Shown here piece by piece: positions 1,952 through 18,389 of a DNA stretch of 43,770 nucleotides. A program made the translations under genes and the position numbers. Each line of letters opens with the position of its first letter. Positions within the stretch are counted from its first letter, which is position 1. Location of the stretch: IMG/VR virus record IMGVR_UViG_3300024520_004058, positions 1 through 43,770 of that record; one strand, 5' to 3'. The notes beneath the pieces are model-generated. The model worked only from the letters and a program-made list of their open reading frames with translations. It was not told the DNA's origin and did no database searches. Source of the stretch: a virus.

Positions 1952-2590
1952 TTAATCGCGTGGAGACCGTCGTACGATCTTAGGCAACACCCAGCGCTTA
2001 TCGCAAACCAGGCACATGGGGCCACGCACAGAGGGCTCACAGTACGCATCGCAGCACTTGGGCGGGAAGGTATGCTTGCAGCGGTAAAGCTGGGCGCGTA
2101 TCTCCCCAGCCAACTCAAGAGTTCGGTACTCCTGCTCCGCCGCTCGCCCCGCCGTGCCGGGACGGCCCAACGTGGGCGGTATGTACAGCGGCGCAGGCGT
2201 GTAGCGATGCATGTTTATCTCGCCTGAGTGCGCCGAGGGATCGAGGCCCCCTTCAAGTACGACATCTGCCGGGTAGGGCGGTACGTGCGGCCAGGCAGTG
2301 TAGGTGCGTATCATTACGTCAGAGCGGCGGCTGTCGTGGGGGTGCCTGGTCCGATTCAGCACGATACAGTCCCCGCCCCGCAAATGGAAGGGTGTAGCGT
2401 CATCAGGGTCAGGCATGGTGCCCCACGCACTGGCCAGTGCGCAGGCAATCTGCTCAATTGCCGGGTAGTACCGGTTCTTCCAGGTGTACTCATCACCCAG
2501 GACTAACATGCTCGGCACCAGGGAGAGGCTGTACCGCCGCTCCAGGGCGCGTAGATCGCCGTCAAGCGGCACAAAGATCTTGTCAGTCAT
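1952..2590 (-). CDS. hypothetical protein with C-terminal CLVCDK zinc-knuckle-like module, 212 aa
   Basis: Start chosen at ATG 2590 (MTDKIFVPL) behind AGGAGG; an upstream in-frame extension has no ribosome-binding site. I do not recognise the N-terminal 160 residues. They include an Arg/His/Asp-rich stretch (residues 79-90) but no motif I can name. The C-terminus has several cysteines, KCCDAYCEP then SVRGPMCLVCDK, which closely resembles the ERKAWPSARGRVCLICDK end of the two Gly-rich proteins at 3703-4247. This shared module is probably metal-binding. It is the last gene of the leftward operon that begins at 8617, overlaps the preceding small gene by 8 bases, and is followed by the inverted repeat at 1651-1861. 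Confidence 0.75.
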   Translation of the reverse strand: MTDKIFVPLDGDLRALERRYSLSLVPSMLVLGDEYTWKNRYYPAIEQIACALASAWGTMPDPDDATPFHLRGGDCIVLNRTRHPHDSRRSDVMIRTYTAWPHVPPYPADVVLEGGLDPSAHSGEINMHRYTPAPLYIPPTLGRPGTAGRAAEQEYRTLELAGEIRAQLYRCKHTFPPKCCDAYCEPSVRGPMCLVCDKRWVLPKIVRRSPRD

Positions 2591-2747
2591 GTTGTGCCTC
2601 CTGGCGCGCCTGCCAGCCCCAAGTAAACTCACCACCACCAAGGATCTCATTGGTTAATTGCTTTAGCACCCTGGCAACTTCTCGCTTGCTGTTCGAGCCT
2701 ATCTTGACTGCGAACTCTACTGGCCTCACAGGCTTGTCCATAATCAT
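2583..2747 (-). CDS. small hypothetical protein, 54 aa
   Basis: A short gene with ATGA overlap to the gene before it (start ATG 2747, previous stop 2744) and an 8-base overlap with the gene after it. The ribosome-binding site AAGGAGGGGG lies within the last codons of the upstream gene. The second in-frame ATG at 2741 is an equally possible start. The product is basic in its first half (Lys/Arg) and has a Gly-Gly-Gly turn near residue 38 followed by FTWGWQ. I recognise no family. Tight packing on both sides is the main support. Confidence 0.6.
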   Translation of the reverse strand: MIMDKPVRPVEFAVKIGSNSKREVARVLKQLTNEILGGGEFTWGWQARQEAQHD

Positions 2748-2932
2748 CCCCCCTCCTTGAGCGCAGCGCAGATTATCTCGTACTCAGTATCAATGTGCGC
2801 CTGAGTTATAGGCCCCGGAGCGTGGACCATGATCTGCTCATACCGCCCCTTGGCCGATACCAGCGCCGTCCGCAGCCGATCGTTCTCTGCTTGGAGTTCG
2901 TCTATCTTTACCTGTCGCCAGTGCTCGGTCAT
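2744..2932 (-). CDS. coiled-coil 'AEN-KLR-KGRY' module protein, 62 aa
   Basis: Starts at ATG 2932 in an ATGA overlap with the upstream stop; the ribosome-binding site is made from the upstream gene's last codons. The product is a short helix with leucine-zipper spacing (ELQAENDRLRTAL), then SAKGRYEQIM, then a motif ending in EYEIICAALKEGG. The same order, AENxxLRxAL-KGRY-IM-EY-ALKEG, forms the C-terminal third of the riboflavin-kinase-like protein at 5036-5533, so the two are paralogous modules. A role as an oligomerisation or docking piece is inference. Its own last codons (AAG GAG GGG) supply the ribosome-binding site for the next gene. Confidence 0.7.
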   Translation of the reverse strand: MTEHWRQVKIDELQAENDRLRTALVSAKGRYEQIMVHAPGPITQAHIDTEYEIICAALKEGG

Positions 2933-3321
2933 CCCCCCTCCTTGAGTAGGCTTTCCAATTGGTTCGCGAACCCTTCAAGCTGTGCAGCTCTCGCAACCCT
3001 AGTGAAATTGCTGTTAGCCTCAGCCCTCCAAGCAGTGATCTTTGCTTCCAGCGCCGCCCGTAGCGCATCTGCCTCAGCTTCCGCCCTCTGAGCCCTTGCT
3101 TCCGCCCGATCCCTGTCGCGCTTGGCTCGGTCCCGTTCAAAGGCGAACTGACTGAGCTTGTTTCGCTCTTTGGATAGCTCGGCATTGGACGCCCGCAGCT
3201 TGGCGTTCTCGGCTTGAAGGTGGCGCACATCTGCCACCATTGGTGGGACGATGGTTGACCCACACCCCCCGCACTTTCCTGCGTAGACTATTTCCCCGCA
3301 CTCGCATTTCCATGTTGCCAT
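2929..3321 (-). CDS. zinc-ribbon plus coiled-coil protein, 130 aa
   Basis: Start chosen at ATG 3321 (MATWKCECG); AAGGAGG lies 10 bases upstream, and TTG 3327 is a possible alternative. The N-terminus holds C-x-C-G and C-x-x-C-G pairs (CECG, KCGGCGS), a small zinc ribbon at about residues 6-21. It is followed by a long charged coiled coil (residues 35-105) rich in Arg/Glu/Ala with a repeated RDRAEARAQRAEAEAD type pattern. The end reads LLKEGG, and those codons form the next gene's ribosome-binding site. No enzyme motif is present. It belongs to the same tightly overlapped leftward cassette. Confidence 0.7.
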   Translation of the reverse strand: MATWKCECGEIVYAGKCGGCGSTIVPPMVADVRHLQAENAKLRASNAELSKERNKLSQFAFERDRAKRDRDRAEARAQRAEAEADALRAALEAKITAWRAEANSNFTRVARAAQLEGFANQLESLLKEGG

Positions 3322-3323
3322 AA

Positions 3324-3584
3324 TCAATCGCCCTCCTTGAGCAGTTTTATCCAGCGGGGCATAACGTCCCAGATATCGATGGGGTCCTCGTTGCACGAGT
3401 CACAGTGGGGCAGGCGACACTTGTATCCCGAACAGTGAGCGGTGCCAATATGCTCCATGGATTCTTTCAGTGCCGCTCGTAGCTTGGCGTTCTCTTCCCT
3501 CGCTTCTTGAAGTTGTCGGTTTCTGGCCGTCTCAGAGTCCATTGTAGACGCGTCCGCAATTGTTGTTCTGATGTGTCTAATCAT
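3324..3584 (-). CDS. hypothetical coiled-coil/cysteine protein, 86 aa
   Basis: Start at ATG 3584 (MIRHIRTTI) behind GAGAGG; a frame extending to 3674 has no ribosome-binding site and overlaps a better small reading frame. The product has a coiled-coil segment with EENAKLRAAL (about residues 29-38), the same motif as in neighbouring cassette proteins. A cysteine/histidine cluster (HCSGYKCRLPHCDSC, about residues 49-63) could bind a metal. It ends in LLKEGD, whose codons carry the next gene's ribosome-binding site. I do not recognise a family. Confidence 0.65.
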   Translation of the reverse strand: MIRHIRTTIADASTMDSETARNRQLQEAREENAKLRAALKESMEHIGTAHCSGYKCRLPHCDSCNEDPIDIWDVMPRWIKLLKEGD

Positions 3585-3664
3585 TTTGTAACCTCTCTCA
3601 TTAGCCTTGTTATACGTTGCGCTGCGTCCAATGCGGCACGACCCGGATTGTGGCTCGGCATCAT
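3581..3664 (-). CDS. possible small gene, 27 aa
   Basis: A 28-codon frame from ATG 3664 ends in an exact ATGA overlap with the 86-residue gene downstream. It would fill most of an otherwise unexplained 118-base gap in a densely packed operon. The product is a basic amphipathic helix (AALDAAQRITRLMREV). There is no strong ribosome-binding site, so it may instead be a leader that couples translation. Low confidence. Confidence 0.35.
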   Translation of the reverse strand: MMPSHNPGRAALDAAQRITRLMREVTK

Positions 3665-3702
3665 CTCTATCCATCGCGGCTCGTTTGGTGTCGTCTTATT
3701 CT

Positions 3703-3957
3703 TCACTCAGCCACCGCAATTACCTTATCACAAATTAAACACACCCGCCCCCTTGCGCTCGGCCACGCCTTACGCTCGCAATCTGGGCAGAGGTAGCCTG
3801 TTAGGTCTACCCCATCGCCATCGCCATAGCCATAGCCAGAGCCATCGCCATCGCCATAGCCAGAGCCATCGCCATAGCCATAGCCGTAGCCAGAGCCATC
3901 GCCATCGCCACAGCCAGAGCCGTAGCCAGAGCCAGAGCCATAGCCTACCTCTGCCAT
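3703..3957 (-). CDS. Gly-rich low-complexity protein with C-terminal zinc knuckle, copy A, 84 aa
   Basis: After MAEV, about 45 residues are Gly alternating with Ser, Tyr or Asp (GYGSGSGYGSG type). Then comes DLTGYLCPDC and ERKAWPSARGRVCLICDK, two CxxC pairs that look like a zinc ribbon. The Gly region is encoded by a hexanucleotide repeat. It starts at ATG 3957, 13 bases inside the end of the preceding copy, behind only a weak G-rich site. It is one of two tandem copies of the same gene. Low-complexity Gly/Tyr/Ser tails in other systems can drive self-association, but any such role here is inference. I know no named family with this layout. Confidence 0.65.
   Translation of the reverse strand: MAEVGYGSGSGYGSGCGDGDGSGYGYGYGDGSGYGDGDGSGYGYGDGDGVDLTGYLCPDCERKAWPSARGRVCLICDKVIAVAE
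3811..3943. repeat. hexanucleotide repeat tract, copy A
   Basis: About 130 bases built from GCCATA, GCCAGA and GCCATC, with rarer GCCGTA and GCCACA, in varied order. On the coding (minus) strand they read GGC followed by TAT, TCT or GAT codons. The tract keeps the reading frame for any number of units. Confidence 0.85.
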
Positions 3958-4247
3958 ACCGGAACCCCGTCAATTACCTTATCACAAATTAAACAAACCC
4001 TACCCCTGGCACTTGGCCACGCCTTGCGCTCGCAGTTCGGACAAATGTATCCAGTTAAGTCGGGTTCAGAGCCATCGCCAGAGCCAGAGCCAGAGCCATA
4101 GCCAGAGCCATAGCCAGAGCCAGCGCCATAGCCATAGTCAGAGCCAGAGCCAGAGCCAGAGCCAGAGCCATAGCCAGAGCCATCGCCATCGCCAGAGCCA
4201 GAGCCAGAGCCATCGCCATAGCCAGAGCCATCGCTTACCTCTGCCAT
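3945..4247 (-). CDS. Gly-rich low-complexity protein with zinc knuckle, copy B, chimeric C-terminus, 100 aa
   Basis: The layout is that of copy A: MAEV, a longer Gly-[Ser/Tyr/Asp] tract (about 56 residues), DLTGYICPNC and ERKAWPSARGRVCLICDK. After CDKVI it departs from copy A and ends DGVPVWQR, which is exactly the C-terminus of the DUF6948-like protein encoded just upstream. This is what a tandem duplication would leave at its junction: the end of copy B is fused to the end of the upstream gene. The start at ATG 4247 lies inside the 3' end of that upstream gene. Expression level is uncertain because the ribosome-binding site is weak. Confidence 0.65.
   Translation of the reverse strand: MAEVSDGSGYGDGSGSGSGDGDGSGYGSGSGSGSGSDYGYGAGSGYGSGYGSGSGSGDGSEPDLTGYICPNCERKAWPSARGRVCLICDKVIDGVPVWQR
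4066..4233. repeat. hexanucleotide repeat tract, copy B
   Basis: About 165 bases of the same GCCAGA/GCCATA/GCCATC units as copy A, but richer in GCCAGA (Gly-Ser) and slightly longer. Unit order differs from copy A, so the tracts have diverged since duplication. Confidence 0.85.
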
Positions 4248-4528
4248 ACCGGAACCCCGTCAATTGCCTCGGTTGCAACTTCTGTGCAAGGCGTTATTTC
4301 CTTTGCATCAATCAACAGCTTATACGGCACGGGGACAGTAAATTTACACTCCGCTGTCAGATTCGGCGCGGTTGCCAATTGCTCAATTGCCGCGGCCCCA
4401 TCCCAGTACCATATGCGCCGACAGTCGGTTAGTTCGACCTCAAGCCCTACCCTGCTCTCTAGTGTCCCATAAAAAACACCGCTTTTCTCACAGCGCACAA
4501 TTACTCGCTTTCCTGTCAAATCTCTCAT
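4235..4528 (-). CDS. DUF6948-like phage protein, 97 aa
   Basis: Start at ATG 4528 (MRDLTGKRVIVRC) behind AAGGAGGG. The pattern VIVRCEKSGVFYGTLESR, then EVELTDCRRIWYWDGA, then AIEQLA, and an end in VPVW, matches small phage proteins that I recall as DUF6948. Their function is unknown. It is probably a compact beta-rich cytoplasmic protein. The last codons (IDGVPVWQR, stop) also contain the start of the first Gly-rich gene in another frame, and that segment was copied in the duplication next door. The start overlaps the upstream stop as ATGA. Confidence 0.75.
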   Translation of the reverse strand: MRDLTGKRVIVRCEKSGVFYGTLESRVGLEVELTDCRRIWYWDGAAAIEQLATAPNLTAECKFTVPVPYKLLIDAKEITPCTEVATEAIDGVPVWQR

Positions 4529-4845
4529 GCTTCCCTCCTTGTGCTTAATCGTCCACCGCCAGGGGGTGCAACACAAGGCCCCGTACGCGGTTTGATAGCC
4601 TCAGCCACTGCCGACTCCGCACCAGAGATGATACGAGCAGCATGTATGCGCCCTTCGTTCATACCCTGATGCGATACCCCATTGTCGAAGTCAGCCGCTT
4701 CGCTACATAGGTAGTGTAGATCACAGTACGCATTGTAGAGCAGTTCGTTGCGCTTACGTAAATCCCGCACCTCGTCTCTTAGTTGAATCTCAGTCATGTA
4801 CGGGACCTCCGCTGACCTCCGCTCACCACATGTCTCTTCAGCCAT
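4525..4845 (-). CDS. hypothetical protein, 106 aa
   Basis: Start at ATG 4845 (MAEETCGERR), two codons after an in-frame GTG (4851) that overlaps the upstream stop. An alternative start at ATG 4797 (MTEIQLRDEV) has its own GGAGG 8 bases upstream and may be the real one. The middle has a helical, charged segment (QLRDEVRDLRKRNELL) of the coiled-coil type seen in neighbours. It is followed by LYNAYCDLHYLCSEAADFDNG and an Ala-rich helix, and the end is Pro/Gly/Arg-rich. I do not recognise a family. It ends in an ATGA overlap with the DUF6948-like gene. Confidence 0.6.
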   Translation of the reverse strand: MAEETCGERRSAEVPYMTEIQLRDEVRDLRKRNELLYNAYCDLHYLCSEAADFDNGVSHQGMNEGRIHAARIISGAESAVAEAIKPRTGPCVAPPGGGRLSTRREA

Positions 4846-4847
4846 AA

Positions 4848-5033
4848 TCACTCTTCCTCCTTTTCAAAACGTAAAATCTCATATCCGACGACCTCTGTTT
4901 GCTTCTCCCAGATACACCCGCAGCCACCCATGCAGTAATACCGCTCCCCATCAGTGCTATCCATCTCGTCTGAGCCGCAATTAGGGCAGAGCCGCCCTTC
5001 GGCCTTGATGAACTCCTGTTGCGTAATTTCCAT
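4848..5033 (-). CDS. small zinc-ribbon protein, 61 aa
   Basis: Starts at ATG 5033 (MEITQQEF); GTG 5039, overlapping the upstream stop, is an alternative. The product has LCPNCGSDEM, then YYCMGGCGCIW, giving C-x-x-C-G and C-x-x-x-C-x-C pairs separated by about 15 residues, a typical small zinc ribbon (residues 16-42). The tail is acidic (FEKEEE). Such phage proteins often bind nucleic acid or transcription proteins, but no partner can be named here. The upstream gene's KEGE codons supply the ribosome-binding site. Confidence 0.7.
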   Translation of the reverse strand: MEITQQEFIKAEGRLCPNCGSDEMDSTDGERYYCMGGCGCIWEKQTEVVGYEILRFEKEEE

Positions 5034-5035
5034 AA

Positions 5036-5533
5036 TCACTCGCCCTCCTTGAGCGCATCCAGCACCATCTTGTATTCCTCATCCACATTGGCCTTAGTCA
5101 TGCACCCTGTCGAATAAACAGGATGTCCTGCGCTGCCCACCCGTGATCGCATGATCAAATGATAGCGCCCCTTGACGCAGGTCAGCGCAGCCCGCAGCTT
5201 GGCGTTCTCGACCTCTGCGGGCGCCCCCACCGTCATCAGCCGGGCGAAGTTGATCAACCAATCGCTGGGCACCTGGCCAGTCACCAAGACCTCCAGCCTG
5301 GAGGCGTGCATGCTCCTATCAGCGTTCCAGCCAATGACATGCACTTCCACAATGCCGCTGCCGTCAGCGGTGATCACGCACCCCCGATACTCCATGTAGC
5401 CATCGATGGAGATCAGGGAGCCCACATAGGCCCCCGGCGCCAGGCCCTTGTCTACGAGATTTGCGGTGGGCCAGCCGCGCCCCCGCCCGAGCCCCTTGCC
5501 CTTAACGGGCGTTCCAGTGATTCTGATTTTCAT
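5036..5533 (-). CDS. riboflavin-kinase-like domain fused to a coiled-coil KGRY module, 165 aa
   Basis: Residues 8-90 follow the riboflavin kinase (flavokinase, RibF C-terminal) pattern: a Gly/Arg-rich turn KGKGLGRGRGWPTAN with the Mg/ATP-binding PTAN at 22-25, LAPGAYVGSL, a short YRGCV strand, then IVEVHVIGW with Glu63 in the position of the catalytic E-x-H strand. The FAD-synthetase (adenylyltransferase) half found in bacterial RibF is absent. Residues 107-165 repeat the module of the 62-residue protein at 2744-2932 (VENAKLRAAL, KGRYHLIM, EEYKMVLDALKEGE). Known family members phosphorylate riboflavin to FMN; activity here is inferred from motifs only. The start overlaps the previous stop as TGATG. 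Confidence 0.65.
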   Translation of the reverse strand: MKIRITGTPVKGKGLGRGRGWPTANLVDKGLAPGAYVGSLISIDGYMEYRGCVITADGSGIVEVHVIGWNADRSMHASRLEVLVTGQVPSDWLINFARLMTVGAPAEVENAKLRAALTCVKGRYHLIMRSRVGSAGHPVYSTGCMTKANVDEEYKMVLDALKEGE

Positions 5534-5778
5534 CAGTAGGTCGCCTCCATCCGTGTGCCTGCTTTACCTGTGACAATGATGCGCTTTGGCAACTCCACGA
5601 ACTCTGAGGGCTTAATGCGCATCTTCTTACGTGAGAGTAAGAGTATCGCCATGGCGGGTGAGATTTTAATCGCCAACGTGACGCCCCACAAGAAGGGTTG
5701 GTTCTCCTTCAACTCGGAAAACATCCGGTAGCACCGATTTTGCTTGTTCAGTTTCTTCTGTAGATCTTTCGTATTCAT
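5533..5778 (-). CDS. hypothetical protein, 81 aa
   Basis: Starts at ATG 5778 in an ATGA overlap with the upstream gene. The N-terminus is basic (KDLQKKLNKQNR). A hydrophobic stretch follows (about residues 29-49, FLWGVTLAIKISPAMAILLL) that could be a membrane segment, although a lysine sits inside it. The C-terminal half is again basic. I do not recognise a family. It sits directly before the riboflavin-kinase-like gene with a one-base stop/start overlap. Confidence 0.6.
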   Translation of the reverse strand: MNTKDLQKKLNKQNRCYRMFSELKENQPFLWGVTLAIKISPAMAILLLSRKKMRIKPSEFVELPKRIIVTGKAGTRMEATY

Positions 5779-6230
5779 GATTGGTCCTTAAGTGCTTGAC
5801 GTAATTGTCTGATGGCGGCTTCTACATCCGCCGTGGCGTCCAGAACGGCTGAGGATTCGTTCAGCAGTGCCAGGACTTGGTCGATCGTCAAGTCCATACC
5901 TGTCGCCCCGTCACGATAGTAGTGGCCATACTTGCCTGTGTGCATCTCGTAGCGCGGTTTACCTTTGGGCGTATGGGTGATGCCACCGTATGGGGGTTCG
6001 GCAGGGGGCTCGGGCCAGGCATCGTATGTCCTCCGCCAAACCTCGGCGGAACATACGTTGGTGTGCATCTCATTGGGCTGACTACCACAATCACAGGGAG
6101 GCTGTGCGCGCCCCGCCATGTTAAACCAGGCGTACGCACCTCCACAGTTCGTTGTAGCCTGGCAGATTGTACCGATCTCGGTAAGTTTTGGTGCGGGCAT
6201 GCCGCAGATCTTACATTTCATTTTAAGCAT
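5775..6230 (-). CDS. cysteine-rich putative zinc-binding protein, 151 aa
   Basis: Start at ATG 6230 behind AAAGGAGCAGCAC, a ribosome-binding context shared with several other genes in this window. The first 65 residues contain CxxC (CKIC), further Cys at CQATTNC, and PPCDCGSQPNEMHTNVC, enough for one or two zinc sites. A Pro-rich linker follows (about residues 73-95). The C-terminal third is helical and acidic, with regular Leu/Ala spacing. No family is recognised. It is separated from its upstream neighbour by 12 bases. Confidence 0.65.
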   Translation of the reverse strand: MLKMKCKICGMPAPKLTEIGTICQATTNCGGAYAWFNMAGRAQPPCDCGSQPNEMHTNVCSAEVWRRTYDAWPEPPAEPPYGGITHTPKGKPRYEMHTGKYGHYYRDGATGMDLTIDQVLALLNESSAVLDATADVEAAIRQLRQALKDQS

Positions 6231-6242
6231 TGTGCTGCTCCT

Positions 6243-6653
6243 TTAATTCTTCAATCGTTTATAAATGTTCAAACAGGACTTGCAGGTAGCCTCCTCTATG
6301 TTGGTCGTCATTTTTCTACCGTACAAAACGCCACAGTGAGGAAACTCCCCGTTTGTCATGTGCATCTTGCGTGAGTCCACGCAGGCCTGGTAGTCCTCAA
6401 ACCCCATAGCCCGCATCAAGGTCGTCTCCATATCGATGGCGATGCGCAGTGCCCGCACCTGGCGTATTTTCCAGGCGGAATAAACGTCAAACTCCGCCGC
6501 CATGCGATAATGCCCGCCACCGGGGCGAGCCACCTTAATCATCATGCGAAAGGTCAGGTCTGTGCGCGTCACCGTGAGTACGCCAGAGGTGTTACGGTCG
6601 ATGACTCTAAACAATTCTGGCACATCGTCTGGGCGTAGGTCAATGAGTGTCAT
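6243..6653 (-). CDS. hypothetical protein with C-terminal Cys pairs, 136 aa
   Basis: Starts at ATG 6653, overlapping the stop of the primase/helicase gene as ATGA, so it is probably translationally coupled to it. The first 70 residues look like a beta-rich domain (VLTVTRTDLTFRMMIKV). A helical part follows (residues 60-85). The C-terminus has PHCGVLYGRK and CKSCLNIYK, where CxxC plus His/Cys could bind zinc. I do not recognise a family. Its position suggests a role linked to replication, but that is only context. Confidence 0.6.
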   Translation of the reverse strand: MTLIDLRPDDVPELFRVIDRNTSGVLTVTRTDLTFRMMIKVARPGGGHYRMAAEFDVYSAWKIRQVRALRIAIDMETTLMRAMGFEDYQACVDSRKMHMTNGEFPHCGVLYGRKMTTNIEEATCKSCLNIYKRLKN

Positions 6654-8617
6654 CTCGGCACCTCCAGTCTGTTGCGCCCGTTGTGCGCGTACTCCACCAC
6701 TTCGCCCTCTGCCAAAAGTTCGGCTACCAGGGTTTGTATGGTCTTGGCCGACAAAGCGCCCCCGCCAAAGGGGTCAACGATGTTCTGCCCGCTGATAGGC
6801 CTGTGCCCGCCAGCAGAAGTACCTGCCTTGTAGTAATCGCCCTCCACGGCAGAGGTGGTGATATAAGCCATGATGGCGTCTTTACTCTCCTGGTCGACGG
6901 CAACTTCGTCCACCACGACAAAAGCGCCCTTGGAGTACCGCACGGGTATCCCTGTGGGTTTCTGGCCGTAGTTACTCTTGTCAACGTCCAGGCGCATAAC
7001 CCCTTCGCGGTCGTCCTGCTGCAGAACCCACATCATGCGCACCGCCCCCTGCCAAGCTGTGCTGCCGGAGTAGGCATGCTCCACGCTCTTTGGTGGGTGT
7101 GCCAGGACCAGTATCCAGCAGTTGTGATCCAGGGCGAGCCGGAACAGGATCTGCTTTGTAAACTGGCCGACTGCCGTACGGTCATTCTCTTCGCCATGGA
7201 AGACATCCATAAGTGTATCGATCACCAGCACTTTGTACTCAGACCCCATCGAGGCCAGCTTACTCTTGAGCTGAAAGTAGAAGGGGCCCGGCACGATCTT
7301 ATTGCCCTCCATCTGCCCTATAGCATTGTCCTCACCTATGCGGGGCAGGATCTGCAGCATACCGGGCTCAATGGCGTCCATTATCTCGGGGTCCTGATCG
7401 ATGATGGCCCAGCGGCGCAAGGCGATCACATTTTTAGGATCTTCGCACATGGCCATGAGTACCCGTGTCGGCTCCAGCACGGGCAAACCCAGCCAGGGCA
7501 TGCCTGCCGCCAGAGCGATACCAAGCTGTAGTGAGAGGAGCGACTTGCCGCCACCCCCTCGGCCAGTGAACAAGGTAAGTGAGGGCTCTTTAAGCACCCA
7601 GTCCTGCACGACCCAGGTCAGGGGCGGCGGATTGTCCTCGATGTCGCAGAAGTCCAGGGAGTCCAGGGTAAACTCCGTGAAGATGTCCGTAAAGGCCTGC
7701 ACGCCCACAGGGCATGCCGGATTGAAGTACCACAAGGTCTGCAGCTTGTCGGTCTCAGGTCGGATCGCCCCCGGCAGCCGGGACAGCCGCGAAGGGTTCA
7801 AACATTTACGGTCGGCGCCCAGCGGCGTCAGGTAGCCATCATAGAGTAGCTGTTTGACCTGCACGTCCCAGGACTGAGCCGTCTCATCGACTTTAAGCCA
7901 CACATGTAGGCTCTTGCCCCCAGAGTCAATAACAGCCGCTACAGGGGCTCCCTGTGCGATCATATACGACCAGAAGCCCGCCTGGGACTTCTTGTCCTTA
8001 TCGTCAAACTCACAGACTACATACTCATGGCGCAGTATTTCTGCGTCACAACGTGATGAGAGTAGGGGGTTGGGGCATATGTAGGGGCCGACATGCTCAG
8101 TCAGCGGGACAGGGGTGGTGGCGTACTTATCGCCTGAGCAGAGCATGTCGGTAGGGCGAAACAGCGAGAGGATCGCATTGGTGGGGTCGTTGACTGCCTG
8201 CAGGGTGGACGCTCGCAGGGGGAGCCCCCTACTGGCCAACGTAGCGTAGACGCTGCCCTCCACCTGTGCGGGGCCCCGCTTACGGGCCGCTGAGTGGACC
8301 CGGTTGCATACGGGGCGCCGAGTCCAGTCGGCCTCAGTGGTCCAGTCGGAGATGTACGCCACGCCAGGGGCATACTTGGCAAAGGTCTGCCAACCCCCAC
8401 CCTGCTGGTTACGCTCGTAGGCTCGGTCTACCTGGTGGTCGAAGTCGTCTCGATCACCGTGCGTTTGGCTGCTCCATTCTCTGAAGGGCTCCCGCCCCTC
8501 CTCGCCTGCCAGGTGCGCTACCGCACAGGCGATCTCCCACCACTCTTGTTCTGAGCAATTGGGGTCAATAATGTCTAGTATCGTACGGATATTATCCGCG
8601 TTGGGTTGTGCGGTCAC
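6650..8617 (-). CDS. bifunctional PrimPol-like primase / RepA-type helicase, 655 aa
   Basis: Starts at GTG 8617 behind AAAAAGGAGCAGCC; no ATG fits. Residues 20-90 resemble a PriCT-2 primase accessory domain (EQEWWEIACAVAH, REWSSQTHGD). Residues 195-295 look like an archaeo-eukaryotic-type primase core: E-F-D at 203-205, SGGKSLH at 232-238, NPSRLSRLPGA near 274-284. From about 335 there is a RecA-fold helicase/ATPase of the RepA/AAA_25 type, with Walker A GRGGGGKS (352-359) and Walker B VLVIDT near 463-468. It would make primers and unwind DNA at the phage fork. It is the first gene of the leftward operon. Confidence 0.85.
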   Translation of the reverse strand: MTAQPNADNIRTILDIIDPNCSEQEWWEIACAVAHLAGEEGREPFREWSSQTHGDRDDFDHQVDRAYERNQQGGGWQTFAKYAPGVAYISDWTTEADWTRRPVCNRVHSAARKRGPAQVEGSVYATLASRGLPLRASTLQAVNDPTNAILSLFRPTDMLCSGDKYATTPVPLTEHVGPYICPNPLLSSRCDAEILRHEYVVCEFDDKDKKSQAGFWSYMIAQGAPVAAVIDSGGKSLHVWLKVDETAQSWDVQVKQLLYDGYLTPLGADRKCLNPSRLSRLPGAIRPETDKLQTLWYFNPACPVGVQAFTDIFTEFTLDSLDFCDIEDNPPPLTWVVQDWVLKEPSLTLFTGRGGGGKSLLSLQLGIALAAGMPWLGLPVLEPTRVLMAMCEDPKNVIALRRWAIIDQDPEIMDAIEPGMLQILPRIGEDNAIGQMEGNKIVPGPFYFQLKSKLASMGSEYKVLVIDTLMDVFHGEENDRTAVGQFTKQILFRLALDHNCWILVLAHPPKSVEHAYSGSTAWQGAVRMMWVLQQDDREGVMRLDVDKSNYGQKPTGIPVRYSKGAFVVVDEVAVDQESKDAIMAYITTSAVEGDYYKAGTSAGGHRPISGQNIVDPFGGGALSAKTIQTLVAELLAEGEVVEYAHNGRNRLEVPR

Positions 8618-10550: not shown

Positions 10551-10631
10551 GTTGACGTAGCGTAATGGCCACGCCCCGGTGCAGCCCTTTCGGGTCGGGT
10601 TAAGTAGGTTCGATTCCTGCCGTCAACACCA
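10551..10631 (+). tRNA. tRNA-like element with encoded CCA, atypical middle
   Basis: A 7-bp acceptor GTTGACG/CGTCAAC closes the element and is followed by A and CCA (10628-10631). TA at positions 8-9, a 4-bp D stem GCGT/ACGC with AATGGCC loop, and a T arm GTAGG-TTCGATT-CCTGC are all present. The 29 bases between the D and T stems do not form a standard anticodon arm. The best fit is TTCGGGT as a proline-CGG-like loop in the stem GCCCT/CGGGT, with one T-C mismatch and about 8 extra bases before it. Total length is 81, longer than a normal short-variable-loop tRNA. It may be a working odd tRNA, a decaying one, or a tRNA mimic. Confidence 0.5.
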
Positions 10632-12502: not shown

Positions 12503-13137
12503 ACGAAATGTTGGAGCGTCTTTGCGCATCCAATGAACGCATGGCGGAGGCGATGGTCGCCTTGGCCGCAAATTGTGGGGACTACCGTGACTGGTTGTTC
12601 CATGAAGTGACCCTCCGTGGGGTGAACCCAGACCAGGCCCGCCGCATGCGCACAGCGGACCTCGATGTCCTGGCCAGGGACCTGAACATGCAGGAGTCGA
12701 TGGGCTCTTACTACCTCATGGCGCCGGACCGCTCACCCTTCCTACCTAAAGAGCGTGCTGTCCGTGCGACAGGGGCACAGCTTGCCCGCATCCGCCAGGT
12801 GCAGGTTGAGAAGCAGACAGCCCTACGCAACGCCACTGAATGCTGCCCCGTCTGCGCTGGCACTAAGACGATGCCCGAGAGTGGCGAGGCCTGCCTGGTC
12901 TGCGTGCCAGAGGTACAGGTGCAGGAGAAGGTGCGTACGGAGACGCCGGTAGAAGACAAGGCGCTGACGCTGGAGGCCTTTCGTCTACTATGCATTGAGT
13001 TCGCCCGAGAGCAGGGGGTTGACGTTCACCACAAGATCATCCGCTCCTTTGGTGTCACCAAGCTTAAAGATCTGAAGCCTGAGGACTACCCGCTCGTCAT
13101 CGCTAAATTTGAGGAGCAGCGGAATGTCTCACAGTAA
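12487..13137 (+). CDS. hypothetical replication-module protein with Cys pairs, 216 aa
   Basis: Starts at ATG 12487 behind CAGGAGCAGCC; ATG 12499, which overlaps the helicase stop as ATGA, is an alternative. The first 100 residues are helical. A CPVCAG...CLVC pair (about residues 119-138) suggests a small zinc site. The last 60 residues (LTLEAFRLLCIEFAREQGVD, then KIIRSFGVTKLKDLKPEDYP) look like the short helical tail seen on some phage SSB or annealing proteins, a weak resemblance. It overlaps the next gene by 14 bases. Function cannot be named. Confidence 0.65.
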   Translation: MDGEMNEMLERLCASNERMAEAMVALAANCGDYRDWLFHEVTLRGVNPDQARRMRTADLDVLARDLNMQESMGSYYLMAPDRSPFLPKERAVRATGAQLARIRQVQVEKQTALRNATECCPVCAGTKTMPESGEACLVCVPEVQVQEKVRTETPVEDKALTLEAFRLLCIEFAREQGVDVHHKIIRSFGVTKLKDLKPEDYPLVIAKFEEQRNVSQ

Positions 13138-14293
13138 CATTGGCCCCTCTGGATCTCATCGCTGGATGAACTGTCCCAGCAGCCCGAACCTGTGTAAGGG
13201 TATGCCCGATAAGACGAGCCCTTACGCGGCACATGGTATTGCAGTTCATGAGGTCTGCGAGATTTCGCTGATCAAAAAGCATGACGCGGATGTGCTGGTC
13301 GGGGCAACGATGACCAACGGCATCACCATTGAGCCAGACGATGCAGTTGCCGCACAGATCTTCATTGATTTTGTGCGCAGTATCTACGGGGGCATGGCGG
13401 ACCCCGAGCCACTGAGTGTGGAGCATCGCTTTGACCTTAATTGGATCATGCCTGGCATGTTCGGTACTGCAGACGCAGTTGTCCGCGAAATGTTCAACAA
13501 GCTATACGTCATCGACTACAAAAATGGGTCGGGAGTAAACGTAGAAGCGAAGGACAATTCGCAGGCAATGTACTATGGGTTGGGCGCATTGGGTGAGGGC
13601 AACCAGGCGATGTATGAAGAGGTCGTACTCGTCATCGTACAGCCGCGAGTGTTTAACGCTGACCCCATCAAGACATGGTCGCTGCCCGCAGATGACCTGA
13701 TGACTTGGGGGCTGGAAGTGTTGAAGCCCGCAGCGGAGGCCACGACTAAACCTGACGCGCCGTTCTGCGCAGGGTCGTGGTGCAAGTTCTGTCGCGCCAA
13801 GCCCATCTGCCCTGCCCTTAAAAGCAAGGCGCTGAGCGTAGCCCGGCAGGCCTTCGATGTCGACATCACCGCTGGCCAGGTATCTCTGCCGAGCCCAGCG
13901 CAATTGTCGGAGCGGGAGATCGCAGACGTTCTGGACTTCCAGGCGATGCTGAAACCCTGGATGGATGCATGTAAGGAGTATGCCATTGATCGCATGCGTG
14001 CAGGCGCCAAGATACCTGGCCGCAAGTTGGTCAGGGGTAAGGCCTCGCGCAAGTGGAACAGTGATGCCGCAGTCATCAAACGCTTGAACCGTAAGATAAA
14101 GAAGTCCCAGCTTTGGACTGATCCAAAGTTGAAATCGCCAGCTAAAATGGAGGCACTCTTAAAGAAGGAGAAGATCGACCCAGCAATACTTGTAGACCTG
14201 ATCGAAATCACGCGGGGCATCAGCCTGGTGTCCGCAGACGACAAACGCAAGGCACTGCCCAACGCAGCGTCCGTATTCACACAAGGAAATTAG
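13124..14293 (+). CDS. DUF2800-type PD-(D/E)XK exonuclease, 389 aa
   Basis: Start at ATG 13124 (MSHSNIGPS) behind GAGGAGCAGC; an in-frame start 15 bases upstream lacks a site. The N-terminus SGSHRWMNCPSSPNLCKGMP and HGIAVHEVCE is typical of DUF2800. GTADAVV with LYVIDYKNGSGVNV gives the nuclease core (Asp and Asp-x-Lys), as in RecB/Cas4-like nucleases. A cluster of Cys (CAGSWCKFCRAKPICPAL, about residues 215-232) fits the Cas4-type iron-sulfur or zinc site. Such proteins are thought to resect DNA ends and pair with a DUF2815 SSB, which is the next gene. Confidence 0.85.
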   Translation: MSHSNIGPSGSHRWMNCPSSPNLCKGMPDKTSPYAAHGIAVHEVCEISLIKKHDADVLVGATMTNGITIEPDDAVAAQIFIDFVRSIYGGMADPEPLSVEHRFDLNWIMPGMFGTADAVVREMFNKLYVIDYKNGSGVNVEAKDNSQAMYYGLGALGEGNQAMYEEVVLVIVQPRVFNADPIKTWSLPADDLMTWGLEVLKPAAEATTKPDAPFCAGSWCKFCRAKPICPALKSKALSVARQAFDVDITAGQVSLPSPAQLSEREIADVLDFQAMLKPWMDACKEYAIDRMRAGAKIPGRKLVRGKASRKWNSDAAVIKRLNRKIKKSQLWTDPKLKSPAKMEALLKKEKIDPAILVDLIEITRGISLVSADDKRKALPNAASVFTQGN

Positions 14294-14297
14294 TACC

Positions 14298-14900
14298 ATG
14301 GCAGACGAAGTAAATGACGAAGTAAATGACGACAACGCTGGCTACATCGTAACTCCCGAGTTTCGCTTGAGCTTCCCCGACCTGTTTGAACTGAACAAGA
14401 ACCAGAAGTATGGCCTGGTCATGTTGTTTGACGCAGGGACGGACATCTCTGAACTCAAGCGCATTGCCAAGGAAGCGCTGGTTGCGAAGTTCGGCAAGAA
14501 GCTCCCCAAAGACATTCGCAATCCGTTTCGCTCCGGCGAAGAGAAGGAGTACTACGAAGACGACCAGGTCTGGGCTCGCGCAGTGACGACCTACCAGCCT
14601 GCAGTTGTCGATGACCAGGGGCAGGAGATCCTCGAAGCTAAGAAGGTCTACGGCGGACAGTATGCCAAGGCTTACATCAATGCCTACGCCTACGAGTACC
14701 AAGGCAAGAAGGGCGTGGCGTTCGGCTTGGAGTCTGTACAGATTGCACGACAGGGTGAGCCATTCGGTAAGAACCACTCTGCCAGTGCAGCTAAGGCGGT
14801 GTTCGGCACCGTAGAGTCGGCGGGCGATAATCCCGGCGACTACGAAGGGGGAGACGAGGCAGGCGGCTCAGACGGCTCAGACGAAATGTTTGACACCTGA
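14298..14900 (+). CDS. DUF2815 single-stranded-DNA-binding protein, 200 aa
   Basis: Five bases after the exonuclease. FRLSFPDLFE, LDAGTD-like FDAGTDISELKRIA, NPFRSGEEKEYYEDDQVWARA and KVYGGQYAKAYINAYAYEYQGKKG-type strands match DUF2815, the phage SSB family related in fold to T7 gp2.5. The C-terminus is very acidic and Gly-rich (DYEGGDEAGGSDGSDEMFDT) and almost ends in Phe, like other SSB tails that recruit partners. It should coat exposed single strands for the polymerase and exonuclease. A strong terminator follows at 14911. The N-terminus carries a small repeat, EVNDEVND. Confidence 0.88.
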   Translation: MADEVNDEVNDDNAGYIVTPEFRLSFPDLFELNKNQKYGLVMLFDAGTDISELKRIAKEALVAKFGKKLPKDIRNPFRSGEEKEYYEDDQVWARAVTTYQPAVVDDQGQEILEAKKVYGGQYAKAYINAYAYEYQGKKGVAFGLESVQIARQGEPFGKNHSASAAKAVFGTVESAGDNPGDYEGGDEAGGSDGSDEMFDT

Positions 14901-14910
14901 CCTAACACAT

Positions 14911-14945
14911 GGCGCGGGACATTCAAATGTCCCGCGCCTTTTTTA
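14911..14945 (+). terminator. rho-independent terminator after the SSB gene
   Basis: GGCGCGGGACATT (14911-14923) pairs with AATGTCCCGCGCC (14926-14938) over 13 bp with almost no loop, followed by TTTTTT. It would reduce read-through from SSB into the polymerase genes. I see no strong promoter between it and the polymerase, so partial read-through is probably used. Confidence 0.9.
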
Positions 14946-14958
14946 TTTGGAGCAGCAC

Positions 14959-15048
14959 ATGCAAAAAGTTATACATAAGTTCGGGTCGCCCGACACCATC
15001 GAGGGTGCCATTGAGAGTCAGAGGGGGCCGACTGATGCCAAGCGGTAA
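14959..15048 (+). CDS. possible small gene, 29 aa
   Basis: ATG 14959 follows TTGGAGCAGCAC, the same ribosome-binding context that precedes at least five larger genes here. The 29-residue product is mixed in charge (MQKVIHKFGS, then DTIEGAIESQRG). Its stop lies 14 bases inside the start of the polymerase exonuclease half, so it may couple translation of that gene. Short length keeps confidence moderate. Confidence 0.5.
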   Translation: MQKVIHKFGSPDTIEGAIESQRGPTDAKR

Positions 15049-15934
15049 AGTAACAATTGATTTTGAGACGCGCAGTCAGATAGACCTACGCAAGGTGGGG
15101 GCGCACCGTTACGCAGCGGACCCCACGACCGAGGTACTCTGCCTGGCAGCACGCAAGGATCAGGACGACCCCGTCATCTGGATCAACGATAAGTTCAACA
15201 TCTTTGAGGCGGACCTACCCCTCATCGGTTTCCAGAAGATCGTACACCTCATCCGCAAGTCCGCCATTGTAGAGGCGCACAACGCAGAGTTCGAGTATGC
15301 GATCTGGAATGAATGTCTCACGCGCTACGGCGCCCCGCCACTACCGCTGGAGCAGTTCCGCTGCAGTGCGGCAATGGCGGCAGCCATGGGTCTACCCCGT
15401 AGTCTCAAGGACGTAGCCAAGTGCCTGGGTAGCCCCATCGACAAGGACATGGGTGGGCACAAGCTCATGCTTAAGATGTGTAAGCCGCGCGCCTCGCGCA
15501 AGGCTGAGCGTGAAGCTGAGCCAGACAGAGATGAGGTCGCGAACCCCTACTGGTGGGAAGAACCTGAGGATATTATCCGCCTGGCAGAGTATTGCCTTAC
15601 GGACATCGAGGCCGAGGAGTGGATCAGTGACGCGATGCCTTGCCTCTCCCCAGACGAGCAGGCGGTGTGGTTGGCCACGGCACGCATGAACCAACGTGGT
15701 GTGCAGGCTGACCTGGCGAGCTGCCTGACCATGGAGACGATGGTCATAAACTACAAGGAAGTGCTGCAGCAGGAGTGCCAGGAGCTCACAGGCGTTCGCG
15801 GCACGCAGACGACCAAGTTGCTGGCCTGGCTGAACGAACATGCCGACCATGAGATCCCCAACATACAAAAAGAAACATTGGAACAGGAGCTACTAAAAGA
15901 TGACGCTATCAGAAGAGCTGAGCTACAAGGCTAA
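15035..15934 (+). CDS. family-A DNA polymerase, N-terminal (3'-5' exonuclease) half of a split gene, 299 aa
   Basis: Start at ATG 15035 (MPSGKVTIDFETRS) after GAGGGGG; an upstream in-frame ATG at 14909 falls in the terminator. Exonuclease motif I is IDFETR (Asp9, Glu11), motif II VEAHNAEFEYAIW, motif III EYCLTDIEAEE, so proofreading looks intact. The end enters the polymerase thumb region (RGTQTTKLLAWLNEH, then ETLEQELLKDD) and stops at AIRRAELQG. Intact relatives carry on into an LPDxVRRxLELR helix, which here is found in the separate gene at 16084. The polymerase is therefore split near that junction, and both halves have their own ribosome-binding sites. Confidence 0.85.
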   Translation: MPSGKVTIDFETRSQIDLRKVGAHRYAADPTTEVLCLAARKDQDDPVIWINDKFNIFEADLPLIGFQKIVHLIRKSAIVEAHNAEFEYAIWNECLTRYGAPPLPLEQFRCSAAMAAAMGLPRSLKDVAKCLGSPIDKDMGGHKLMLKMCKPRASRKAEREAEPDRDEVANPYWWEEPEDIIRLAEYCLTDIEAEEWISDAMPCLSPDEQAVWLATARMNQRGVQADLASCLTMETMVINYKEVLQQECQELTGVRGTQTTKLLAWLNEHADHEIPNIQKETLEQELLKDDAIRRAELQG

Positions 15935-16091
15935 GTTACGTGCGATGAGCAGCGAGGAGCTGTGCGCCCACTACGCTATCATGCGTGAAGAGATTTACAC
16001 ATTCCACACCGCCAAGCAGGTGGGCAATATTGATAAGCAGGTGCGTTCCCCTGGCCGGGTCGCGATCACGGGGAGGAGAGACTATGAGTAA
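15900..16091 (+). CDS. small gene lying in the break between the two polymerase halves, 63 aa
   Basis: A frame from ATG 15900 overlaps the last 35 bases of the exonuclease half and the first 8 of the polymerase half. The product is helical and charged (SEELSYKAKLRAMSSEELCA and an Arg/Lys-rich end); I recognise no homing-endonuclease, intein or intron motif. A ribosome-binding site is weak (AGGAG about 8 bases upstream, inside the polymerase codons). It may be a real small gene or filler left by the event that split the polymerase. Confidence 0.5.
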   Translation: MTLSEELSYKAKLRAMSSEELCAHYAIMREEIYTFHTAKQVGNIDKQVRSPGRVAITGRRDYE

Positions 16092-17247
16092 GCCCTTACC
16101 TGATGAGGTGCGCCGCGCCATTGAGCTGCGCCTGCAGATTGCAAAATCATCAACATCTAAGTTGACTGCAATCTCCCAGCGTGTCTGCTCAGATGACCGG
16201 GTGCGCGGTACGCTGCTCTACCACGGGGCGCACACGGGTCGCTGGTCTGGGTCGGGCGTGCAGTTGCACAACCTACCCTCGCGATCACTGGCCGTAAAGC
16301 ACACTGCCCTGGAAGGCGTGCTGGAGGCCTATGCCCTCGGCGGTGTAGACTTCCTGCGCGTGGTGTACGATGACCCCATGGCTGTCGTCTCTGCGCTCAT
16401 CCGCCCACTACTAATTGCGGCGCCAGGTAAGACCCTGGTGTGTGCAGACTATAGCTCCATCGAGGGGCGGGTCCTGGCCTGGCTGGCGGGAGAGGATTGG
16501 GTCGTGGACTCCTATAAGAAGGGGCTCGATCCGTACATCGTGGCCGCACTCACCATCTTTGGCTGTAGCTATGACGAGGTCACGCCCAACCAACGCCAGA
16601 TAGGTAAGGTCGCGGAGCTTGCCTGTGGCTACCAGGGAGGCAAGAACGCCTACCTGCGTTTCGCCAAGGACTACGGCATGAGCTTCGAGCCAGAGGATGC
16701 GCAGAAGATCGTTGATGATTGGCGGGAGGGTCGCCCGCAGATACGTGCGTACTGGTACAACATTGGTGAGTGCTTTATGAACGCCATTCGCCAACAGGGC
16801 AAGGTGTTCAAGTACCGGGGCATTCAGTTCCGCAAGACCAAACGCGGGTACCTGCAGATCAAGCTACCCTCCGGTCGGTGGCTGTGGTATCCCAAGGCCA
16901 GGATTGAGCAGCGCGTGCCAGTGTGGGGTGGGGCGAAGCGAGACTGTGCGACCTACTTTGGTAAGGACGACAAGGGCAAGTGGTGCCAGCTCTCTACCTA
17001 CGGGGGTAAGCTCACAGAGAACATCGTCCAGGCTGTCGCGCGGGACCTGCTCAGCGAGGCTAAGCTGCGCTGTGAGGTGGAGGGCTTGTCGATGGTCCTC
17101 TCCGTACATGATGAGATCGTGCTAGAAGAGGCGATCCGCACGGCGAACCTGCAGCAACTCATAGATGTAATGTGCGATTCTCGCGACTGGGCGGACGGGT
17201 TGCCTGTCGAAGCGGATGGTTGGATAGGTAAGAGGTACAGAAAATGA
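16084..17247 (+). CDS. family-A DNA polymerase, C-terminal (polymerase) half of a split gene, 387 aa
   Basis: Start at ATG 16084 (MSKPLPDEVRR) behind GGGGAGGAGAG, the strongest site nearby. The product begins in the thumb helix (LPDEVRRAIELRLQIAKSST) and covers palm and fingers: HGAHTGRWSGSGVQLHNLPS, motif A VCADYSSIEGRVLAW (catalytic Asp), motif B RQIGKVAELACGYQGG (O-helix Arg, Lys and Tyr), and motif C LSVHDEIVLE (catalytic Asp-Glu). All catalytic residues are present. It must act with the exonuclease half at 15035 to make a complete enzyme, presumably as a two-chain complex. The stop overlaps the next start as ATGA. Confidence 0.88.
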   Translation: MSKPLPDEVRRAIELRLQIAKSSTSKLTAISQRVCSDDRVRGTLLYHGAHTGRWSGSGVQLHNLPSRSLAVKHTALEGVLEAYALGGVDFLRVVYDDPMAVVSALIRPLLIAAPGKTLVCADYSSIEGRVLAWLAGEDWVVDSYKKGLDPYIVAALTIFGCSYDEVTPNQRQIGKVAELACGYQGGKNAYLRFAKDYGMSFEPEDAQKIVDDWREGRPQIRAYWYNIGECFMNAIRQQGKVFKYRGIQFRKTKRGYLQIKLPSGRWLWYPKARIEQRVPVWGGAKRDCATYFGKDDKGKWCQLSTYGGKLTENIVQAVARDLLSEAKLRCEVEGLSMVLSVHDEIVLEEAIRTANLQQLIDVMCDSRDWADGLPVEADGWIGKRYRK

Positions 17248-17441: not shown

Positions 17442-17764
17442 TGACCAGGCTAATCTTCATCAAACGTATCGTCGCATTTATTGCGGGACTGTTTATCGTC
17501 AAGCCTGATGACAACCAGTACTTGAGTGTGGCGGATGACGCGAGTTACGACTTCGATGGTGATGACTTCTCGATGGCTATGTGGACACGCCACCTCTCTG
17601 ATGAGGAGATCGCCGCGCTGCGTGATCAACCCACTGGACGGGTCTATCGCGAGACAATGATGGACGCGCATTGGATCGGTTGGGATATGGCTGAAGAGGG
17701 TTCCGAATCTACAACACACTTTTTAATAGAATGGAGCAAAGACGATGATGATACTGGGAATTGA
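17438..17764 (+). CDS. hypothetical protein with N-terminal membrane anchor, 108 aa
   Basis: Start at ATG 17438, overlapping the previous stop as ATGA; GAGGAG lies about 10 bases upstream. Residues 4-22 (RLIFIKRIVAFIAGLFIV) form a basic-then-hydrophobic segment that could insert in the inner membrane, with the rest of the chain either side. The remainder is acidic (YDFDGDDF, DMAEEGSES, and DDDDTGN at the end). It resembles no family that I can name. It overlaps the RuvC-like gene by 20 bases. Confidence 0.6.
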   Translation: MMTRLIFIKRIVAFIAGLFIVKPDDNQYLSVADDASYDFDGDDFSMAMWTRHLSDEEIAALRDQPTGRVYRETMMDAHWIGWDMAEEGSESTTHFLIEWSKDDDDTGN

Positions 17765-18389
17765 CGTAGGCCTGGTCAACACTGGCTGGGCAATCATGTC
17801 CTACTATGACGGCTGGCATGTACATGAGACGGGCATCATCAAGACTGAGGGTAGTGCGAAGAAGGTTAAGATCTACAAGTGTGACGACCTCACTCGACGG
17901 GTGCGGGAGATACTCGATGGTCTGGCCAGTGTTGTTGGCACCTATCAGCCCAAAGCTATCGTGGCTGAGATGCCGAGCGGTGGGTCGAAGAGTGCCGCTG
18001 GCGCCCGAGGTATGGCAATAGGTTTGACCGCTACCGTGGCCTTGGCCTGGGGAACGAAGCTACCCCTGATCTCGATCATACCCACGCAGTCTAAGAAGGC
18101 GTGCTGCGGTAGCGCGAACGCTAGCAAGAATGCGATGCAAGCCTTCGTCGCGCAACAGCACCCCGAGGTGGCAGAGCAGTACGCCAAGTCCAGCAATAAC
18201 TCTGGCTACGAGGGGTGCTTTGAGCATATCGCGGACGCCATCTGTGCAGTACATTCCGCCGAGCATGACTCGACCGTGATGCTACTTATGCAGGGTGCAG
18301 CGTATGTCTCACTCGGTGGGACAAGCGTTATGCAGTTGCCCGCAGGATACGGCCCGGTGACCACGGGAGGTGATGCCCCGTGGGAGTAG
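17745..18389 (+). CDS. RuvC-fold Holliday-junction resolvase-like nuclease, 214 aa
   Basis: The N-terminus ILGIDVGLVNTGWAI is the RuvC motif I strand with catalytic Asp. AIVAEMPSGGSKSAAGARG supplies the second acidic residue (Glu) and a Gly/Ser-rich loop. HIADAICAVHSA near residue 165 supplies the last Asp. Order and spacing fit RuvC/RNase H-fold resolvases used by phages to resolve branched DNA before packaging. Length is slightly above E. coli RuvC; the last 45 residues are a Gly-rich tail without a clear role. ATG 17748 is an alternative start. It closes the well-supported part of the rightward operon. Confidence 0.8.
   Translation: MMILGIDVGLVNTGWAIMSYYDGWHVHETGIIKTEGSAKKVKIYKCDDLTRRVREILDGLASVVGTYQPKAIVAEMPSGGSKSAAGARGMAIGLTATVALAWGTKLPLISIIPTQSKKACCGSANASKNAMQAFVAQQHPEVAEQYAKSSNNSGYEGCFEHIADAICAVHSAEHDSTVMLLMQGAAYVSLGGTSVMQLPAGYGPVTTGGDAPWE

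Follow-up and report, generated by a model that had tools for sequence, protein, structure and literature searches.

How does a phage come to carry a family A DNA polymerase, a textbook single-chain enzyme, in two separate genes, and do the two products still make one polymerase? The window analysed here is the whole of the IMG/VR virus record IMGVR_UViG_3300024520_004058 (43,770 nt), a single metagenomic record with head, connector, tail and terminase genes of phage type. Its replication module occupies about 10.9-18.4 kb of the + strand, in the order SNF2-like helicase, DUF2800/PD-(D/E)XK nuclease, Enc34-type single-stranded DNA-binding protein (SSB), exo, a small open reading frame, pol and RuvC. 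The nuclease gene lies at 13127..14293 (+; PF10926, E 2e-84), the ssDNA-binding protein gene directly upstream of exo at 14298..14900 (+; PF10991 Enc34 ssDNA-binding protein, E 9e-28) and the RuvC-like resolvase gene downstream at 17745..18389 (+; PF02075, E 2e-7). The interval between the SSB gene and exo holds an intrinsic-terminator-like hairpin (14911..14950, +), a 12-pair stem followed by TTTTTTATTT; given this hairpin, exo, the small ORF and pol may be transcribed as a unit of their own or may need read-through. At 10551-10631 of the window ARAGORN calls an unusual tRNA-like gene whose anticodon has two bases; Rfam gives no match in the window.

We find that the window contains two separate coding regions whose catalytic residues are intact. 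The exo gene (15035..15934, +; 299 aa) encodes a DEDD 3'-5' exonuclease domain and the first thumb helices, and the pol gene (16084..17247, +; 387 aa) encodes the last thumb helix, the palm and the fingers of a family A DNA polymerase. The two lie in different frames, and their ends and coordinates agree with those of the first-pass annotation. Both match the same PHROG, phrog_17 DNA polymerase (exo, E 4.8e-23; pol, E 4.7e-75); in addition, pol matches the Pfam family PF00476 DNA_pol_A (E 1.1e-21), and exo is up to 38% identical over 99% to annotated phage DNA polymerases. Profiles derived from relatives give one match each, to the exo ORF (E 2e-111) and to the pol ORF (E 3e-170), with no further match and no other DNA polymerase anywhere in the window. 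The annotation had assigned all exonuclease motifs to the first gene and all polymerase motifs to the second, and profile alignment of both genes locates the residues in just this way. The first gene holds D9/E11 (DFET), N83/F86/E87 and Y186/D190, and thus the Exo I DxE, Exo II and Exo III YxxxD carboxylates of a DEDD proofreading exonuclease (D9, E11, E87, Y186, D190). The second holds motifs A (D122), B (R171/K175) and C (H342-D343-E344), that is, the catalytic D, R/K and HDE of family A, with all invariant residues kept. At the Exo II position Klenow has D where the window has E; because 42 of the 48 aligned sequences also carry E there, E87 is a family trait and not damage. Each half likewise has its own start and ribosome-binding site, as proposed. 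The Shine-Dalgarno duplexes before the exo ATG at 15035 and the pol ATG at 16084 reach -11.1 and -11.7 kcal/mol, respectively, against a random mean of -2.9, and the one that serves pol (GGGGAGGAG region; 16070..16078, +) lies within the small ORF.

Where does the break fall? A model of the one-piece relative L087 (mean pLDDT 94) comes nearest, among solved structures, to Klenow and other Pol I enzymes. In this model the junction maps to residues 272-276, a loop of about 5 residues that connects thumb helix 263-271 with thumb helix 277-289, confirming that the polymerase is cut in its thumb. The first thumb helices are therefore on the exo chain and the last on the pol chain. In Pol I enzymes these helices pack against one another, therefore a complete thumb should need both chains. 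In the window the exo side of the junction reads ...ELLKDD and the pol side LPDEVRRAIELRLQ (junction stretch LPDEVRRAIEL). That intact relatives run on through this point is borne out by the alignment of two one-piece enzymes, L004 (...LLAGKDLPDEARKALQIRQ; junction stretch AGKDLPDEARKALQI) and L001 (...LAGEDLPCSVREALRLRQ), both continuous through the junction. The flanking protein sequence of the window aligns with one-piece relatives free of gaps and no residues are lost at the junction. At the broken ends the exo chain is longer by 9 residues and the pol chain by 4. The site tolerates added sequence, since the relative L003 has about 25-30 extra residues there.

What separates the two halves is a segment of about 191 nt (15905..16095, give or take a few nt; +), flanked by gap-free alignment and having no counterpart in one-piece relatives. 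The description of the locus as a two-gene split holds for both genes as given; what it overlooked is a third ORF of 63 aa in the gap (15900..16091, +). This ORF starts within exo, which it overlaps by 35 nt, and ends within the start of pol, which it overlaps by 8 nt (ATGAGTAA). Its ATG is preceded at the usual distance, about 11 nt, by AGGAG (duplex -6.6 kcal/mol), and its codon score of 0.179, as compared with 0.215 +/- 0.082 for the real genes of the phage, exceeds that of 99.3% of same-length stop-free off-frame stretches. For the putative product AF2 without an alignment predicts helices at residues 3-15 and 18-47, with a pLDDT of about 90 for residues 1-30. The protein has no relative in Pfam, PHROGs, NCBIfam, phages, IMG/VR or viral folds, and shows no significant similarity to the small ORFs of L021 and L099, two interrupted relatives described below, or to that of phage MEP401. 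Nor does the ORF match any nuclease, and the window's gap holds no homing endonuclease or recognisable mobile gene. On its codon usage and start signals, the 63-aa ORF is best treated as a real orphan gene with a putative product. The break is thus a gene-carrying insertion, not a simple break. Might the small helical protein itself be a third subunit, sitting in or on the broken thumb and acting in trans as a switch of processivity or proofreading? Its position would be comparable to that of the thioredoxin-binding insertion in the thumb of T7 polymerase, yet we regard such a role as quite unlikely.

Does the phage make one chain after all, with the insert removed from the RNA as an intron or from the protein as a split intein, or bypassed by the ribosome? 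Joining the flanks would keep the frame, phage polymerase genes often contain introns and inteins (PMC10580990), and in one relative, L196, the polymerase has an interruption that resembles an intein, close to a GIY-YIG gene. Against this, the region has no Rfam match at E up to 5 or at the gathering threshold, its predicted RNA fold is no more stable than that of shuffled sequences (z = +1.2), the tails of 9 and 4 residues are far too short for the parts of a split intein, and each gene has a ribosome-binding site and start of its own. A spliced mRNA, which the annotation had named as an observation that would speak against fission, is thus unsupported. Both a group I/II intron, for which the insert offers neither an Rfam match nor a fold beyond the shuffles, and a split intein, whose N- and C-intein segments are absent, were rejected, and a single chain by any of these routes appears very improbable.

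How common is such a division among relatives? The search for one-piece relatives that had been suggested found both domains in a single ORF at 224 of 243 loci, some of them overlapping, and one-piece enzymes at 64 of 67 further loci, 66 of which come from bacterial and archaeal genome contigs. The window's split is absent from all its close relatives found, and exact peptide patterns from the exo half retrieved no close relatives in IMG/VR; L115, the nearest row to the window in the careful tree (80/81), is one-piece. Trees of the exo and pol halves show no significant conflict, as expected if both came from one gene, and separate origins of the halves were rejected. A polymerase cut at the same thumb loop does occur in L099 (IMGVR_UViG_3300049856_000235, 2583-6173), which falls with the window in one well supported clade of 16 members (100/99). 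As in the window, start and stop signals overlap: the exo stop and the pol start of L099 each overlap the neighbouring ORF as GTGA. The two loci differ in that the insertion of L099 measures about 1.4 kb and has four ORFs, two of which encode an HNH_3+NUMOD4 homing endonuclease and an RNA ligase, and in that its identity to the window is only about 40%. A single fission shared by the window and L099 is slightly favoured by the large quick tree (AU p 0.63) and slightly disfavoured by the small careful tree (AU p 0.23).

These data bear on the possibility that the split is an assembly artefact, a sequencing error or a decaying pseudogene. The locus is known from one metagenomic virus record, and no near-identical record was found. 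Yet about 191 nt of coding-like sequence fit between the halves with overlapping start and stop signals, a different insertion occupies the same loop in L099, and the catalytic residues are all intact. No base error could give rise to 191 nt that look like coding sequence, and because this gene-like stretch separates the halves, a single read error is excluded as a sufficient cause; we therefore uphold the view that the locus reflects fission, and think there is very little chance that it is an artefact or a gene in decay.

Other relatives are interrupted elsewhere. The polymerase of L180 is cut before motif A. Four related contigs, L137, L148, L159 and L163 (for example L148, 394-2347), share a frame break inside the exonuclease domain, where the open frames overlap by 17 nt; whether this represents fission, frameshifting or an inherited error is undecided. 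In L196 (6100-7330) the break in the polymerase comes after TGRW, where intein-like sequence begins (CLAEDTQVLVMDL...); an ORF resembling a GIY-YIG endonuclease separates the parts, and the arrangement resembles a fractured gene whose intein is split. L046, L050 and L057 carry only the palm and fingers of a related polymerase, with no thumb or exonuclease nearby.

A question remains, do the two chains of the window work together? The products could act separately and have no need to reassemble, the exo chain serving as a free nuclease and the pol chain as a polymerase that lacks proofreading. Stand-alone palm-fingers genes exist in other phages (phrog_10285; L046, L050 and L057), and the first thumb helix of the exo chain (204-240 by L087 numbering) has diverged to an unusual degree in the window (z -2.8) and in L099 (z -1.9), the two enzymes with a cut at this loop (segments picked after inspection, two cases only). 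In both, normal scores are found for the catalytic domains, for the tip of the thumb and for the last helices. This divergence is a lead, indicating either that a new interface has been remodelled or that constraint has been relaxed there. However, a cut inside the thumb leaves the pol chain without the first thumb helices. The exo chain, for its part, keeps a thumb stub with a normally conserved tip and last helix. Helix 263-273 on the exo side and helix I on the pol side of the window match one-piece relatives in their conservation, and the order and adjacency of exo and pol are retained. Independent action of the two products therefore seems unlikely to us.

We consider it probable instead that a family A phage polymerase has been split by the insertion of a small gene in its thumb loop and that its chains reassemble as a 'gene in pieces'. 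In such a course of events a small mobile or passenger gene would, probably, have inserted into the permissive thumb loop of a Pol I-like replicative polymerase. The three genes would be carried on one message and yield three proteins through coupled re-initiation at their overlapping starts. Packing of the exo chain, with the first thumb helices, against the pol chain, with the last, would then re-form the thumb and with it one polymerase capable of proofreading. As for the inserted gene, it may be what is left of a mobile element, or may have replaced one, an element such as the homing endonuclease that L099 carries at this site. Whereas the insertion step rests on sequence comparison, we infer that the chains would assemble because the cut lies inside the thumb and because there are two precedents: the split Aeh1 nrdA gene, whose enzyme is fully active, and gp43A and gp43B of phage 25, which co-purify with polymerase activity (PMC2988022). 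As the window's gap contains no homing endonuclease, its cause is argued by analogy with L099, whose HNH endonuclease at the same loop points to the insertion of a mobile gene.

With a polymerase that is naturally cut in the thumb, a two-chain system is at hand in which to study the grip of the thumb on DNA and the coupling between synthesis and proofreading. Moreover, L099, with a homing endonuclease in the gap at the same loop, suggests a route by which mobile genes may lead from single-chain to multi-subunit polymerases. On the practical side, gene callers and marker surveys that rely on full-length PolA will overlook such split enzymes.

How does this arrangement compare with known split enzymes? 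Among the relatives, the viral contig L021 has a family A polymerase (4912-7149) that is likewise interrupted by a small ORF, about 62 aa long and overlapping; there the break lies between the exonuclease and the thumb, and the small ORF is dissimilar to that of the window. In gp43A/gp43B of the Aeromonas phages 25 and 44RR, in Aeh1 nrdA and in the T4 topoisomerase genes, an enzyme is split by a homing endonuclease or another insert and its parts reassemble (PMC2988022). The window conforms to this 'gene in pieces' pattern in that one gene has become two adjacent genes with their own starts. A mobile gene in the gap, usual in the pattern though not obligatory, is lacking, and a nuclease is found only in the relative L099. 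The inserts of those systems are homing endonucleases or untranslated spacer, whereas that of the window is a 63-aa orphan gene; furthermore, gp43 belongs to family B. Within family A, the polymerase of the Methylophilales phages MEP401 and MEP402 is split by a small ORF (PMC10580990), and, as in the window, the MEP401 enzyme is encoded by two ORFs with one small ORF of unknown function between them (gp13, gp14, gp15). Its break, however, falls within the polymerase domain, immediately ahead of motif A, and not in the thumb, and neither a shared break position nor a homologous small ORF links the two. Split phage polymerases are thus known from family B and, as one case in family A, from MEP401/MEP402. 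The polymerase described here, also of family A, is divided in its thumb, with the exonuclease on one chain and the polymerase on the other, and is a new variant and not a new kind of system.
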